A stretch of 64,000 nt of DNA, from positions 248,001 to 312,000 of the forward strand of contig WGLU01000001.1 of the NCBI GenBank assembly GCA_016125375.1, written 5' to 3'. This DNA is from Pseudomonadota bacterium (lineage in GTDB: Bacteria > Pseudomonadota > Alphaproteobacteria > UBA1280 > RI-95). The stretch's first letter is position 1. Each line of letters starts with the position of its first letter. Shown here one piece after another: positions 8,543 through 14,751 of the stretch. The position numbers and the translations under genes are program-made. The notes under the pieces are model-generated. The model was not told the DNA's origin, made no database searches, and saw only the letters and a list, made by a program, of their open reading frames with translations.

Positions 8543-8639
8543 TTATTGTTTGGATTGTCAGCCGATCTTTTTTCACTTTTTCGCTTTTGTATCTCTGACA
8601 CCTTTATCTTTCGACCTTGATTCACAAGGAGTCCAAAAC

Positions 8640-9704
8640 ATGGCTTCTTTCAACCCGAAGGGGGTCTCCTTCGACGCGTTCGTTCGCGCCATGGATGCCG
8701 TCGGCTACATCGCCGTCGACCCTGACGCGCTCATGTCCGCCTACCTCACGGTTCAGGACATGGCTCACTGCGACGCCACCAAAGGCCCCATCAAGACGCT
8801 CATTCTCGACGGTCCCCCCGGTACCGGTAAGTCGTTCATCGCTGAATGTCTTGCCCAGCTGCTTGGCGGCGACTATCTCGAGTACAACTGTCACCCCGAC
8901 TCGAGCTTCGAAGACTTCGTCAAGGACATCAACATCGAGGCGCCTGTGGCGGCCCAGTCGGGCTACCTGCAGTCGGCGCCGACCAAGGAGGACCTGTACC
9001 TCCTCGGCCCGCTTCTGCAGGCCATCAAGATGTCGGCCACCACGCCGGTGGTGTTCCTGATCGACGAACTCGACAAGGCCCGTCCCGCTGTCGACGCGCT
9101 GCTGCTGACCACCCTGAACTCGGGCCGTATCACGGTCATGGGTCTGGGCCAGGACGGCAAGAGCGCGGTCATCAACGCGAACCGGCAGAACATTCTGATC
9201 GTCATCGCGAAGAACGACGAGCGTGACCTGCACCCCGCGCTTCTGCGCCGCGGCCGCGTCATCTACATCGACTATCCGCACCCGGATATCGAGACGCGCA
9301 TCATCCGCGAGCAGGCCGGTGTCGGCCCCGAGGCCGCGCGGTCCATCGTGACCCAGGCCAACAAGCTCCGCAAAAACAAGAGCATCAGCAAGCCGCCTTC
9401 GCTGCCTGAACTGGTGCGTCTTGCGCAGGACTTCCGCCGCATGGCGGATGCTGCCAGCGGTAACATGATCAAGGAGACGGATGGTTCCCTGACCTGCCGC
9501 GTGCCGAAGGAACAGCTCAACAAGGCGTTCCTCAACGGCATGCTCGCCAAGGCGGAGGATCAGCACCTCGGTCGCCAGCTGCTGAAGGACAAGTCCTTCG
9601 GTACGGCGTTCCTGAGCGCGGTCCTGCGCGGTCTGGGTGTCAAGGACACCAGCATCCGTTACCTCCAGAAATCGAGCCTGCTCGCCGGTTCGGCGGGCAA
9701 GTAA
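8640..9704 (+). CDS. AAA+ ATPase, MoxR/CobS-like
   Basis: 354 residues. AAGGAG precedes the ATG at 8640 (MASFNPKG); an in-frame start at 8550 has no such site. Walker A DGPPGTGKS is near residue 58-66 and Walker B VVFLIDELDKA near 138, followed by sensor-1 IVIAKNDERDLHP and an arginine-finger-like ALLRRGR. This is the short single-domain MoxR/CobS type, which works with a VWA-domain partner to remodel proteins or insert metals. The partner candidate is the VWA gene at 10194, so the pair resembles CobS-CobT. No cobalamin genes are nearby, so a cobaltochelatase role is not supported. Codon use is strongly C-ending. Confidence 0.85.
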   Translation: MASFNPKGVSFDAFVRAMDAVGYIAVDPDALMSAYLTVQDMAHCDATKGPIKTLILDGPPGTGKSFIAECLAQLLGGDYLEYNCHPDSSFEDFVKDINIEAPVAAQSGYLQSAPTKEDLYLLGPLLQAIKMSATTPVVFLIDELDKARPAVDALLLTTLNSGRITVMGLGQDGKSAVINANRQNILIVIAKNDERDLHPALLRRGRVIYIDYPHPDIETRIIREQAGVGPEAARSIVTQANKLRKNKSISKPPSLPELVRLAQDFRRMADAASGNMIKETDGSLTCRVPKEQLNKAFLNGMLAKAEDQHLGRQLLKDKSFGTAFLSAVLRGLGVKDTSIRYLQKSSLLAGSAGK

Positions 9705-9719
9705 GCTCGTTCTCAGTTC

Positions 9720-10128
9720 TCAGATAAATCCGGGCGCGTTTCTCGCCGTCAACAAGGGGGGTAATACCCTGGGGGTTAAACCCTTCCGGCTCCGGCTGGG
9801 TTGTTGCAGGTGGATGGCGTGCCCGGGTCGATCGCGTTCGTCCTGACGTAGATTGACTATTTTCTGGGCCCCCAACCATAACCCGAGCACTACGATCGGG
9901 CGGTTGTGGCACGGCGAAGGCCAAGACCGGGTCAACGGCGAAAGCCCGCGGCTTGTGGTGAAATCTGCTGCGCATCGGGGAGGGGAAACCCAAACCGGTG
10001 TTCAGCGGCACCCCACCTTGCCTGGTCACCTGAAAGCGTCAACGCTCGAGAGGGCGGTGGCGTGGAAGGGTTCGTAGGGGTAAGGACTTTCGGTTTCTGC
10101 CGGTGGGGTTTTCCCCACCGGTTTCTTT
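9720..10128 (+). ncRNA. Candidate structured RNA between the AAA+ and VWA genes
   Basis: 489 nt separate the two genes and hold no convincing reading frame. Many complementary segments are seen: CAACAA 9750-9755 with TTGTTG 9801-9806; CAACC 9873-9877 with GGTTG 9902-9906, enclosing CCCGA 9882-9886 with TCGGG 9896-9900; GGC-GAAA-GCC at 9937-9946; GGG-GAAA-CCC at 9982-9991; GGTG/CACC at 9997-10012. The last two GAAA hairpins have GNRA loops. A strong terminator ends the region. It could be an independent RNA or a long structured 3' UTR of the AAA+ gene. I do not recognise RNase P, tmRNA, SRP RNA or a known riboswitch in it. Confidence 0.5.
10100..10128 (+). terminator. Terminator of the structured region
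   Basis: 9-bp perfect stem CCGGTGGGG/CCCCACCGG with loop TTTT, followed by TTTCTTT. It separates the AAA+ transcript or RNA from the VWA gene. Confidence 0.93.
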
Positions 10129-10193
10129 ATATGATCATTCTCTCAGACTTTTCTTTTCACTCCTTTATGACCTTCTTAACCAAGAGGTGACAT

Positions 10194-12110
10194 ATGGCGG
10201 ACAAAACCCCGCTCGATATGCGCACCGTGCGTCGTCTGCTGAGCGCCTACGTCAAGTACGGTGCCAGCGGCATGTGGCGTGTAGACCCCAAGACCGGCGA
10301 GGCCAAGCTGCCCATGGATGGCAGCAAGTCCGAGCACGATATCCTGCCCAGCGAGCTGAAGAAGATCCTCGAGGATATCCTTCACGAGCCGGGTAAGATT
10401 CCGCCGGAATGGGCGGATCTGGTCAAGGGACACAACGACGCGCAGAGCGCGATCCGCGACAAGCTGGATCCCTCCCAGAAGAAGCAGTTCGACGCTTTCT
10501 GGGATAATCTCAAGAACGCCGGCAAGGGCGAGCTTGATGCGCTGGAAAACAGCGTGACCGAGATGGATCCCGCCGTGCGGGACGCCATCAAGGAATCTCG
10601 CCGCGAGCGCCAGAGCTTTGCCTCCAGGGCCCTCACGGACTGGCTTGAGGCCAACCCCCAGCCGCAGGAAGGCGATGACAAGAAGGACGATAAGTCCGAC
10701 GGTCAGGACCAGGACAAGCAGCAGGGCGATGGCAAGGAGCAGTTCGACGAAGACCAGATGGATGAAGGCGACCCGTCCGAGCAGGATGGTTCGGACAAGT
10801 CCGATGGCGACGGCGACGAGGACGGTGACGACGACGGCTCCGGTGACGGGGACGGCGATGAATCCGAAGACGGCGACGGCGAAGGTGATTCCGACTCCGA
10901 TTCCGACAGCGACGGCGACGGCAAGGGGAAAGGCAAGGGCAAAGGTCAGGGCCAACCCCAAGACGGCGACGGCGAAGGTGACGGTGAAGGTCAGCCTCAG
11001 GACGGCCAGCAAGGCAAAGGCCAGGGCAAGGGCAAACCCGGAGAGGGTAAGCCGGGCCAGGGCAAGGGCCAGCAGGGTCAGCCGGACAAGTTCGACGACA
11101 ACTCCGCGCGTGAAGACTCCCAGCCGGGCCACGAAGAGTGGCTCAAGCAGCTGGAAGACGAAACGCAGAAGCAGGAGCAGAAGAACGAACAGCAGCAGCA
11201 GGCCGACACCGATGCCAAAGAAAAGGCCGGTGAGACCAGCGACGCTGACGGCGAAGATGGTAAGGGCAAAGGCAAGGACGTTCCGTCCACCCGCCCGCGC
11301 GACAACCATCCGGAAGGTGTCTTCAACCTCAGCGAAAACATCCCCAACAAGGAGGATGTGGAAGCGGCGAAGCAGGCGTTTGCGCGTCTGATCTCTCGCG
11401 GGCGTAATAACCCGACCCGCCTCCCGCGCTGGAAGATGAATGACCTGACCAAGCGCCTGAGCACGTTCCGTAACCCGAAGCCGGCCAAAAAGCCGACTCT
11501 GGAGCGGAAGGCCATCGTCTTCATCATCGACAACTCTCCGTCGATGGCGCATCTGGAACGCGAATCCCGTGCGCTGGCCGCGGCACTCAGTGCCTCGGGC
11601 GGTCCGGGCGGCGCAGACGTCATCGTCTGCCTCAGCTCGAACGGCGATTACAGCTCCAGCCGCCCGCTCACCGCCGGCAATCATGACGGTGCGTGGTTCC
11701 GCAACGGCAAGCTCATGGGCCTTCTGCCCAAGCCTGCGCCTGGTAGCGGAGTGGACGAGAGCGATTCTGCCCGTTGTTGGGAGTGGTTCCTCCGCAAGTA
11801 CCTGCCTGGTCAGGGTGTGGAGGTGCAGCTCATCGGCATCTACGGTGACAGTGACGGTACCCGCCAGTGGGCGTTCATCTCGAACGTGGCCAAGGGCGTC
11901 CGGTGCATCTGGTTCAACCCGACGGGTAAGGGTGCGGGCATTCCCATCGAGGAAGTCTACAACCCGGACCTGACGCACGGTGGTATCGGCCGCCCGCCTG
12001 GCTACGTGCCTGGCGATAAGCGGTACGAAAAGTTCACCGGACGTTACTTCATCCGTGTGGACACCGTCCGCGACATCGCAAACGCGCTGCGTAAAGTAGC
12101 GGGTATGTAA
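10194..12110 (+). CDS. VWA-domain protein, CobT-like
   Basis: 638 residues after AGAGGTG and CATATG. N-terminal about 165 residues are helical. About 165-330 is a low-complexity acidic and Gly/Lys/Gln region (DGDGDE, GKGKGKG types). The C-terminal VWA domain starts near 438 with KAIVFIIDNSPSM; D-N-S-P-S is the MIDAS D-x-S-x-S motif. An acidic linker before a C-terminal VWA domain is the CobT layout, and an adjacent CobS/MoxR-like ATPase supports partnership. The substrate is unknown. Its own terminator follows. Codons are C-ending, unlike the housekeeping genes. CobS/CobT-like pairs are also known from large phages. Confidence 0.82.
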   Translation: MADKTPLDMRTVRRLLSAYVKYGASGMWRVDPKTGEAKLPMDGSKSEHDILPSELKKILEDILHEPGKIPPEWADLVKGHNDAQSAIRDKLDPSQKKQFDAFWDNLKNAGKGELDALENSVTEMDPAVRDAIKESRRERQSFASRALTDWLEANPQPQEGDDKKDDKSDGQDQDKQQGDGKEQFDEDQMDEGDPSEQDGSDKSDGDGDEDGDDDGSGDGDGDESEDGDGEGDSDSDSDSDGDGKGKGKGKGQGQPQDGDGEGDGEGQPQDGQQGKGQGKGKPGEGKPGQGKGQQGQPDKFDDNSAREDSQPGHEEWLKQLEDETQKQEQKNEQQQQADTDAKEKAGETSDADGEDGKGKGKDVPSTRPRDNHPEGVFNLSENIPNKEDVEAAKQAFARLISRGRNNPTRLPRWKMNDLTKRLSTFRNPKPAKKPTLERKAIVFIIDNSPSMAHLERESRALAAALSASGGPGGADVIVCLSSNGDYSSSRPLTAGNHDGAWFRNGKLMGLLPKPAPGSGVDESDSARCWEWFLRKYLPGQGVEVQLIGIYGDSDGTRQWAFISNVAKGVRCIWFNPTGKGAGIPIEEVYNPDLTHGGIGRPPGYVPGDKRYEKFTGRYFIRVDTVRDIANALRKVAGM

Positions 12111-12378: not shown

Positions 12379-14751
12379 TTAGTCGTCGGTATCGGTGCTG
12401 CCACCGGCCAGCTTTTCAGCCAGTTCCTTGGCGCCCACGTAGTCGGTCTTGCCGGTCCCCAGCAGGGGGATGGCATCGACCGTGTAGATCTTACGCGGCA
12501 CGAACAGCTCCGGCATGCCTTCGGCTTTCGCCTTGGCCAGCAGGTCCGAACGGTCCGGCGTATTCTCCGTGGTCAGCAGCACCAGCTGCTCGCCCTTCTT
12601 GTCGTCGGGGATGGCGGTCACCACGTTCTGGGCATTGTTCCAGACGCGGTTGGCCAGATCTTCGACGCCATTGAGGGGGACCATTTCGCCAGCGATCTTG
12701 GCGAAGCGCTTGGCACGGCCCTTGATGGTGATGAAGCCTTCGGCATCGATGGCCACGATGTCGCCGGTGTCGTACCAGCCGTCGCCGAAATCACTCGACG
12801 GCGGAACCAGAACGCCCGGGTTGTCGTGGAACATGTAGCCTTTCATCACGTTCGGACCGCGCACATGGAGGCGCGCGCCATCTGTGATGCCCGGAATCTC
12901 TTCCAGTTTGGCTTCCATGCTCGGCAGCAGCCGGCCAACCGAACCTTCGCGGTTCTGCAGCGGCGTGTTGAAGCTCAGCACGGGGCTGGTCTCCGTGGCG
13001 CCGTAGCCCTCGAAGATACGCTTGCCGAAACGCTCGAACCACACCTTGGCGGTGGCGGCCTTCAGCTTCTCCGCACCGGCCAGAACGAGGCGCAGGCGAT
13101 AGAAGTCGTACACGTGGGCATACTTGGCGTAGCCCGCGAGGAAGGTGTCCGTGCCGAACATGATGGTCGCGTTGCAGTCGTAGAAGACTTCCGGAATCTC
13201 CTTGAACTTGAGCGGAGACGGGAAGAGGAACACCGGAATGCCCGAGAGCACCGGCAGCAACGTACCAGCCGTGAGGCCGAACGAGTGGAACATCGGCAGG
13301 GCGTTGAGCACCTTGTCCGTGGGGGTGAAGTCCACGCGGGCCGCAACCTGCAGCCGGTTGGCATTCAGGTTGGCGTGGCTCAGAACCACCGCCTTCGGCG
13401 TACCCTCGGAACCCGAGGTGAACAGAATCGCCGCCGGCGCCTGGGCATCGCCCGAGGTACCGAACCACTGGAGGCTCTTGGCAGCCAGCAGGCCGCGCAG
13501 CTTGTCACCACGGGTAACCGTGGCGCCGATGTCCTCCAGATAGACGAGGTTCACCTTCTCGGCCAACAGAGCGGCAATGTCGGTGAGGCCACCGGCATCG
13601 ACGAACTTGCGCGAGGTGATGACCGTTTTCACGCAGGCCGTATGGCAGGCCGCGAGCATGCCCTTCACACCGGTCGTGAAGTTCAGCATCGCCGGGACGG
13701 CGCCAGCGGCATGCAGACCGAAGAAGGTCACAACCGTGGCGTTGGCGTTGGGCAGCATCACGCCAACAGCCTCGCCGGGTTTGGCGAACTTGGCGAATTT
13801 GCGTCCCAGCACCTGTGAACCGATGAGGAGCTTGCCGTAGGTCAGGCCTTCGGTGTCGGTCGTCTCGGTGTTGATGTTCTCGCAGATGGTATGGCCGGTG
13901 CCGTGGATGGCAACCGAGTCCAACAGACCCTGGGTAAGGGTCTTCTTGTCCCAGCCGGAGGCCTCGAACATCGCGCCCGACATCAGGTTGTAGAGGTGGT
14001 CACCGCCGCGCTTGTTGCGGCCACCGCCCGTGGTGGGCGTTTCCAGCCGGCGTTCCGGCAGGACGATGATTTTCACCTTGGCGAAGAGGCTGCGACGGAC
14101 CTTGCCGCCCATGCGCGACCAGAAGGTGTACTGCGCACCCTCGACCCGGATGGGGAGAATGGGCGCTTCGGCCTTCTGCGACACCATGACCGAACCCTCG
14201 TAGATTTTCATCAGCGAGCCGGTCAGCGTCAGACGACCTTCCGGGAAAATCACCACGCGGTGGTCTTCCTTCAGGCGGTTGACGAGGGTCTTCATCGACA
14301 TGGGGTTGAGCGGGTCAACCGGCAACACTTCGGCGATGGGCTTGGCCAGCCGGACCATGAATGCCCAGAAGGGCTTCTCGGAGGTCTGGCGGTTCATCGC
14401 GAAGGTCAGCTTGTCCGGCATGTACGCCACCAGAGCCGCCGCGTCGATGAACGACGGGTGGTTCGGGGTGATGAGCACACGCTTGCCGGCCTTGCGGTAG
14501 TTCTCGAGCCCTTCGACTTCGATGCGGTGGAAGAGTTTCAGGTAACCGCGCAGCATGCCACGCAGCATCAGGCCCTGAATCTTCTCGGGCATGATCTTCC
14601 AGAACAGGGCAAAGGCGCCCAGGCCCAGAACCGTGTAGAGCGCTGCGAAGAGCAGCGTCGTCCAGCCCAGCAGGCTGCCGATCATGAACAGGAACAGGCC
14701 CCAGAAGACAGGCCAGAGTTCCCGCGAAAGCAGGTTGAGGATGGTTTTCAT
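12379..14751 (-). CDS. aas: Fused 1-acyl-phospholipid acyltransferase / acyl-ACP synthetase (Aas-like)
   Basis: 790 residues, start after AAGGGA. Two N-terminal hydrophobic segments (about 12-52) are followed by a PlsC-type domain with NHPSFID (the H-x4-D motif) near 99 and FPEGR near 170. An AMP-binding domain follows from about 280: ILFTSGSEGTPKAVVLSH is the phosphate loop, then EGYGATETSPV, GWYDTGDIV, and a C-terminal GTGKTDYVG with the adenylation Lys. Aas-type enzymes re-acylate lysophospholipids at the inner membrane using an acyl-ACP intermediate. The usual enteric partner lplT is absent. Codons are C-ending and the gene stands alone between tRNA genes, suggesting transfer. Confidence 0.92.
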   Translation of the reverse strand: MKTILNLLSRELWPVFWGLFLFMIGSLLGWTTLLFAALYTVLGLGAFALFWKIMPEKIQGLMLRGMLRGYLKLFHRIEVEGLENYRKAGKRVLITPNHPSFIDAAALVAYMPDKLTFAMNRQTSEKPFWAFMVRLAKPIAEVLPVDPLNPMSMKTLVNRLKEDHRVVIFPEGRLTLTGSLMKIYEGSVMVSQKAEAPILPIRVEGAQYTFWSRMGGKVRRSLFAKVKIIVLPERRLETPTTGGGRNKRGGDHLYNLMSGAMFEASGWDKKTLTQGLLDSVAIHGTGHTICENINTETTDTEGLTYGKLLIGSQVLGRKFAKFAKPGEAVGVMLPNANATVVTFFGLHAAGAVPAMLNFTTGVKGMLAACHTACVKTVITSRKFVDAGGLTDIAALLAEKVNLVYLEDIGATVTRGDKLRGLLAAKSLQWFGTSGDAQAPAAILFTSGSEGTPKAVVLSHANLNANRLQVAARVDFTPTDKVLNALPMFHSFGLTAGTLLPVLSGIPVFLFPSPLKFKEIPEVFYDCNATIMFGTDTFLAGYAKYAHVYDFYRLRLVLAGAEKLKAATAKVWFERFGKRIFEGYGATETSPVLSFNTPLQNREGSVGRLLPSMEAKLEEIPGITDGARLHVRGPNVMKGYMFHDNPGVLVPPSSDFGDGWYDTGDIVAIDAEGFITIKGRAKRFAKIAGEMVPLNGVEDLANRVWNNAQNVVTAIPDDKKGEQLVLLTTENTPDRSDLLAKAKAEGMPELFVPRKIYTVDAIPLLGTGKTDYVGAKELAEKLAGGSTDTDD

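Follow-up and report, generated by a model that had tools for sequence, protein, structure and literature searches.

Few large structured RNAs are known in bacteria, and a good number of these lack an assigned function. OLE, ROOL and GOLLD are ornate large bacterial RNAs whose functions are poorly understood, and ROOL and GOLLD reside in phages and prophages, frequently close to tRNA islands (PMC12286853). Pairs of a MoxR AAA+ protein and a VWA protein, such as NorQ/NorD (PMC9976466) and RavA/ViaA (PMC10585395), are known as machines that remodel proteins and insert metals. In the literature covered by a term search, there was no report of an RNA component in such machines. To our knowledge, none has been described. 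Ro60/Rsr VWA proteins associate with Y RNAs.

In the window, which is the whole stretch of 64,000 nucleotides that was analysed, an AAA+ gene and a VWA gene are separated by a gap of 489 nt (9705-10193) that contains the RNA described here (Table 1). We regard the RNA as real, uncatalogued, narrowly distributed, structured and linked to the AAA+ gene, with support from compensatory changes in a homologue in a second genome, UBA6503; any function given to it here is putative. Our preferred reading, to which we give a probability of roughly 0.55, is that this is a new, narrowly distributed structured RNA that forms the 3' portion of the transcript from the AAA+ gene and, with less certainty, may act in trans, with the AAA+ protein and, through it, the VWA protein as the candidate partner. 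OLE, ROOL and GOLLD would be its closest RNA analogues in kind, but not in sequence. It resembles them in its length of hundreds of nucleotides, its multi-domain fold, its conserved unpaired motifs and a possible pseudoknot, but it is shorter and has no sequence or covariance match to them. Whereas ROOL and GOLLD occur on phages and prophages, this RNA was found only 3' of an AAA+ gene in two genomes that belong to a single order. The neighbours are a MoxR-like AAA+ protein, with NorQ as its best PDB relative, and a VWA protein, as in NorQ/NorD and RavA/ViaA. A VWA protein encoded beside a structured RNA is also reminiscent of Ro60/Rsr and the Y RNAs; in contrast to that system, however, no TROVE domain was detected, the RNA has roughly four times the size of a Y RNA and its place is behind the AAA+ gene rather than the VWA gene.

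Table 1. Features of the AAA+/RNA/VWA locus (positions in the window)
Feature	Position	Strand	Details
MoxR-like AAA+ ATPase gene, 354 aa	8640-9704	+	Pfam AAA_5, 55 bits
Structured RNA, from P1 through the terminator tail	9730-10128	+	homologue at L004 minus strand 1457-951; Rfam match absent
Domain 1, with P1 (9730-9738 / 9818-9826) as closing helix	9730-9826	+	9 bp in both genomes, 4 double changes
Conserved arms CUCGCnnUCAnCA (9742-9754) and UGnUGCAnGnGGAUG (9802-9816)	9742-9816	+	sequence kept in UBA6503
Helix P3	9750-9755 / 9801-9806	+	2 double changes
Helix P4 (9827-9833 / 9851-9857)	9827-9857	+	7 bp, 1 double change
Invariant GACUAUUU	9855-9862	+	identical in both copies
Stacked hairpin P5 (9873-9877 / 9902-9906)	9873-9906	+	3 double changes
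Helix P6, within P5	9882-9886 / 9896-9900	+	2 double changes
P6 apical loop GC[A/G]CUACGA	9887-9895	+	
Hairpin P7, conserved ACGGC-nnn-GGCCAAG	9911-9925	+	loop GAAG here, UUCG in UBA6503
GGG-GAAA-CCC hairpin GGGGAAACCC	9982-9991	+	identical in UBA6503
Conserved ACCUU-GCC box	10014-10022	+	
3' box [U/C]CGUAGGGG	10072-10080	+	contains CGUAG
Intrinsic terminator with a stem of 10 pairs (10099-10122) and a T-rich tail	10099-10128	+	terminator prediction
Gene for a VWA-domain protein of 638 aa with an acidic/Gly-rich linker and the MIDAS motif DNSPS	10194-12110	+	adjoins the RNA here only

The gap, which is single-copy in the source genome, was found to carry no coding signature between 9705 and 10193, either in codon-position GC or in its ORF peptides compared with the UBA6503 gap. 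Its GC content was flat across the three codon positions (0.65/0.59/0.57) compared to 0.63/0.41/0.85 in the AAA+ gene, and both flanking genes showed strong periodicity. The short ORFs of the two gaps have no convincing peptide in common. An ORF of 129 aa on the minus strand (9640-10029) was rejected as a gene because it has no convincing peptide counterpart in UBA6503. An earlier, sequence-only reading of this DNA had described the gap as non-coding, which agrees with these results, and had named a decayed coding gene as the case that would speak against a structured RNA. The flat GC, the missing common peptide and the compensatory changes described below argue against that case.

The Rfam scan that had been suggested at the same time was conducted, and no family matched: among 4227 families (Rfam 15), none reached its gathering threshold in the whole window, and even at E<=10 there was no convincing match for the gap or for its UBA6503 homologue. 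The weak matches below the gathering scores differ between the two copies, with none in common. Covariance models for RNase P (RF00010), tmRNA (RF00023 and RF01849) and the catalytic cores of group I and group II introns gave no match at the RNA locus. The source genome's normal RNase P RNA (G000:C1:18754-19088, 312.6 bits) and its tmRNA (G000:C7:258141-258494, 176 bits) were found on other contigs. Thus, the earlier impression that the element is none of these large RNAs was borne out. It is extremely improbable that the element is a diverged form of one of them or a decayed gene. The size falls in the range of the known RNAs and there are isolated local resemblances, GGCCAAG and GGGGAAACCC among them. 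Against this explanation stand the intact RNase P and tmRNA genes at other sites of the genome, the lack of an Rfam match at E<=10, the flat codon-position GC, the missing conserved peptide and the compensatory changes. In addition, the tmRNA of this order (G000:C7:258141-258494; L033) is of the standard type (RF00023, 174-177 bits) and not the permuted alpha_tmRNA, which is useful for lineage placement, and ARAGORN gave the tag AEDNFEYALAA for the UBA6503 tmRNA.

The homologue lies directly 3' of an orthologous AAA+ gene (56% identity) on contig DJLZ01000005 of the MAG UBA6503 (G005), a genome from another family of the same order. This copy was located by inspecting the region 3' of the AAA+ orthologue and not by DNA similarity. 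Behind that gene are about 700 nt without a recognisable gene, followed by a convergent PfkB-type gene, which takes the far-side position held here by the VWA gene. The RNA is about 510 nt long in UBA6503 compared to about 400 nt here. Local alignment of the two gaps gave a score of 418, and shuffled sequences gave a mean of 263 (sd 24; z = 6.5), with 0 of 500 shuffles as high; the wrong-strand alignment scored 238. About ten sequence motifs are common to both RNAs, in the order CUCGCnnUCAnCA, AAACCCUUC, UGnUGCAnGnGGAUG, CCGGGUCG, GACUAUUU and the GCRCUACGA hairpin loop, and then ACGGC-nnn-GGCCAAG, GGGGAAACCC, ACCUU-GCC and CGUAGGGG on the 3' side. The two copies share common descent.

The structure rests on two sequences, with an alignment partly anchored by hand on the motifs and on the helices themselves, and on this basis five mutually compatible helices (P1, P3, P4, P5 and P6) pair in both genomes, with 32 pairs, none broken and 12 double changes. 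When common helices were enumerated from the aligned pair, P1, P5, P3 and P6 were among the top entries. Sliding the partners by 1-3 columns reduced pairing in the P4-P7 core from 100% to 18-48%. Helices of 5 bp or more that carried at least two double changes numbered six, compared to a mean of 1.7 in column shuffles, of which 3/200 were as high. The domain closure by CAACAA/TTGTTG noticed in the sequence-only reading is present as P3, and the nested hairpin noticed there, CAACC/GGTTG enclosing CCCGA/TCGGG, is P5 with P6 inside it. Both GNRA hairpins that it listed are also present, and all these features lie at the coordinates given there, but only the hairpin at 9982-9991 was kept in UBA6503; the other, a GAAA-tetraloop hairpin (GGCGAAAGCC) at 9937-9946, is not conserved in the homologue. 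The CUACG of the P6 loop is complementary to the CGUAG of the 3' box in both copies, so that a pseudoknot between these two invariant strands is possible. A complementarity of 9 nt (9779-9787 / 10064-10072) is perfect here and lost in UBA6503, and was rejected as a helix.

Fold energy was also calculated. The gap gave z = -3.1 on the plus strand and 0.05 on the minus strand, and the UBA6503 copy folds better than its shuffles as well (z -4.1). Windows of 200 nt in the flanking coding genes reach z -2 to -3.7, and fold energy is, therefore, weak evidence and was rejected as proof of a structured RNA. The convincing support is comparative and comes from the UBA6503 homologue, in which five helices show compensatory changes. 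A homologue of this kind is what marks a conserved structured ncRNA, and its absence had been named in the sequence-only reading as a refutation; on two sequences, the outcome favours the proposal of a structured RNA of about 400 nt.

Two covariance models, of 121 and 142 positions, were used to scan 289 relatives, 385 genomes of the class, 6 of the order and 398 of the phylum. Since these sets overlap, the distinct genomes number about 960 or fewer, and among them the only members were the source genome and UBA6503. Matches in G242 (24.7 bits) and G247 (27.8 bits) were rejected because they lie within coding sequence, and weak matches in G003 (13.9 bits) and G002 (10.8 bits) were regarded as noise. 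DNA similarity searches against the genome's own relatives, plasmids and phages showed no homologue outside the source genome, and pattern searches of IMG/VR gave chance matches only. The RNA was also sought at 80 loci of named genomes with AAA+ relatives and occurs at none except that of UBA6503 itself; the AAA+ relatives at the other loci are general MoxR-like proteins of at most 37% identity.

The AAA+ protein has NorQ and CbbQ as its best PDB relatives. Among the 289 relatives, orthologues (54-57% identity) were found only in UBA6503 and in G003, which is from the genus of UBA6503, and the other AAA+ relatives in this set are general MoxR-like proteins of at most 38% identity. The protein is a separate MoxR-like branch, seen among the 289 relatives in this order only. 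Against the NCBIfam model MadB_ATPase it scored 81 bits, far under the cut-off of 475.

The sequence-only reading had suggested that the RNA could be a non-coding partner of the AAA+/VWA pair or a regulatory 3' UTR. Its link to the AAA+ gene holds in both genomes, but its link to the pair does not. The VWA gene of UBA6503 lies 260 kb from the AAA+ gene and the RNA and is preceded by another gene. In G003 the AAA+ and VWA genes adjoin, with 121 nt between them, and the RNA is absent there; a simple terminator hairpin alone stands behind the AAA+ gene, and the covariance models found no member anywhere in the genome. The G003 contig stops 128 nt past the VWA gene and, thus, a displaced copy is conceivable. 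Because of the 260 kb in UBA6503, the RNA is taken to go with the AAA+ gene and not to be a VWA leader. If the RNA were a riboswitch or 5' leader for the VWA gene, its attenuator would be the 10099-10122 hairpin, and this would suit the window, where RNA and terminator are immediately 5' of that gene. This explanation is strongly disfavoured by the distant VWA gene of UBA6503 with its different upstream neighbour, and by the single covariance-model match of that genome, which lies behind the AAA+ gene with a convergent gene next. A leader should precede its target gene in each genome that carries it, and in UBA6503 there is neither a VWA gene nor a co-directional gene downstream.

The AAA+ gene and the RNA are probably co-transcribed. 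The AAA+ stop codon and P1 are 25 and 28 nt apart in the two genomes, on the same strand, and in both genomes this spacer has no recognised promoter or terminator. A common transcript is the simplest reading of so short and plain a spacer. The strong terminator noted earlier was found again by prediction, and a terminator also closes the UBA6503 copy. A scan for sigma-70-like sites gave no promoter-like site within 9560-10220 or at the UBA6503 locus. This result, and a link to the AAA+ gene that persists despite changed surroundings, make it quite unlikely that the RNA is an independent gene with its own promoter inside the 3' coding end of the AAA+ gene, a merely historical neighbourhood and a function unrelated to AAA+/VWA, even though G003 has both protein genes without the RNA and large RNAs such as GOLLD and ROOL usually act alone (PMC12286853).

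Another possible explanation is a cis-acting 3' UTR element that shields the AAA+ mRNA or adjusts how it decays and terminates and has no separate function in trans. The position of the RNA on the same strand, 25-28 nt past the stop codon and ended by a terminator in both genomes, is what such an element would show. We consider it somewhat unlikely, since the size of the RNA and the number of its invariant unpaired motifs (GACUAUUU, the GCRCUACGA loop and CGUAGGGG) go beyond the needs of mRNA protection, and the G003 gene has only a simple terminator hairpin. With modest confidence, a stable trans-acting RNA is favoured, with the AAA+/VWA machine as the first candidate partner. Such an RNA would be transcribed as the 3' portion of the AAA+ mRNA, and its folded tail might persist as a stable RNA, possibly released by RNase cleavage near 9705-9730, and might then act in trans. 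The most economical partner would be the MoxR-like AAA+ ATPase from the same transcript and, via this protein, the VWA protein; the RNA could serve as a scaffold or as a client RNP remodelled by the AAA+/VWA machine. That G003 keeps an AAA+ orthologue without the RNA behind it counts against this explanation. A bolder idea, a new class of large structured RNA that is built into a MoxR AAA+/VWA machine or serves it as a dedicated substrate, is doubtful.

The RNA is uncatalogued and backed by compensatory changes, and its tie to one protein gene in both cases provides a concrete candidate partner. Binding by the AAA+ or the VWA protein would make RNA part of how MoxR machines work, and a true component or dedicated substrate would place an RNP in a protein family whose known roles are limited to protein remodelling and metal insertion. 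Without such binding, it would still represent a new family of RNAs, from a proteobacterial order with small genomes.

The VWA protein has a long linker rich in acidic residues, Gly and Lys (window 10680-11290), the length of which differs greatly among orthologues. Its C-terminal domain, with the MIDAS-like motif DNSPSM, has no sequence match in Pfam, NCBIfam or the PDB, and the protein apparently represents an undescribed VWA family. On the minus strand, 12379-14751 of the window is one gene of 790 aa, the product of which begins with an acyltransferase domain and continues with an AMP-binding domain of the acyl-CoA/ACP synthetase-like kind. Finally, long pyrimidine-rich tracts, such as TCTTTTTTCACTTTTTCGCTTTTG, were seen in the AAA+ 5' leaders of all three genomes and in the VWA 5' leader (window 8550-8640 and 10150-10193; L004 minus strand ~2660-2625; L005 minus strand ~2320-2285; L178 450-490). 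They occur in both leaders even where the genes are 260 kb apart. Similar tracts are found 5' of a few other genes in the window and, therefore, they may be a general feature of leaders.
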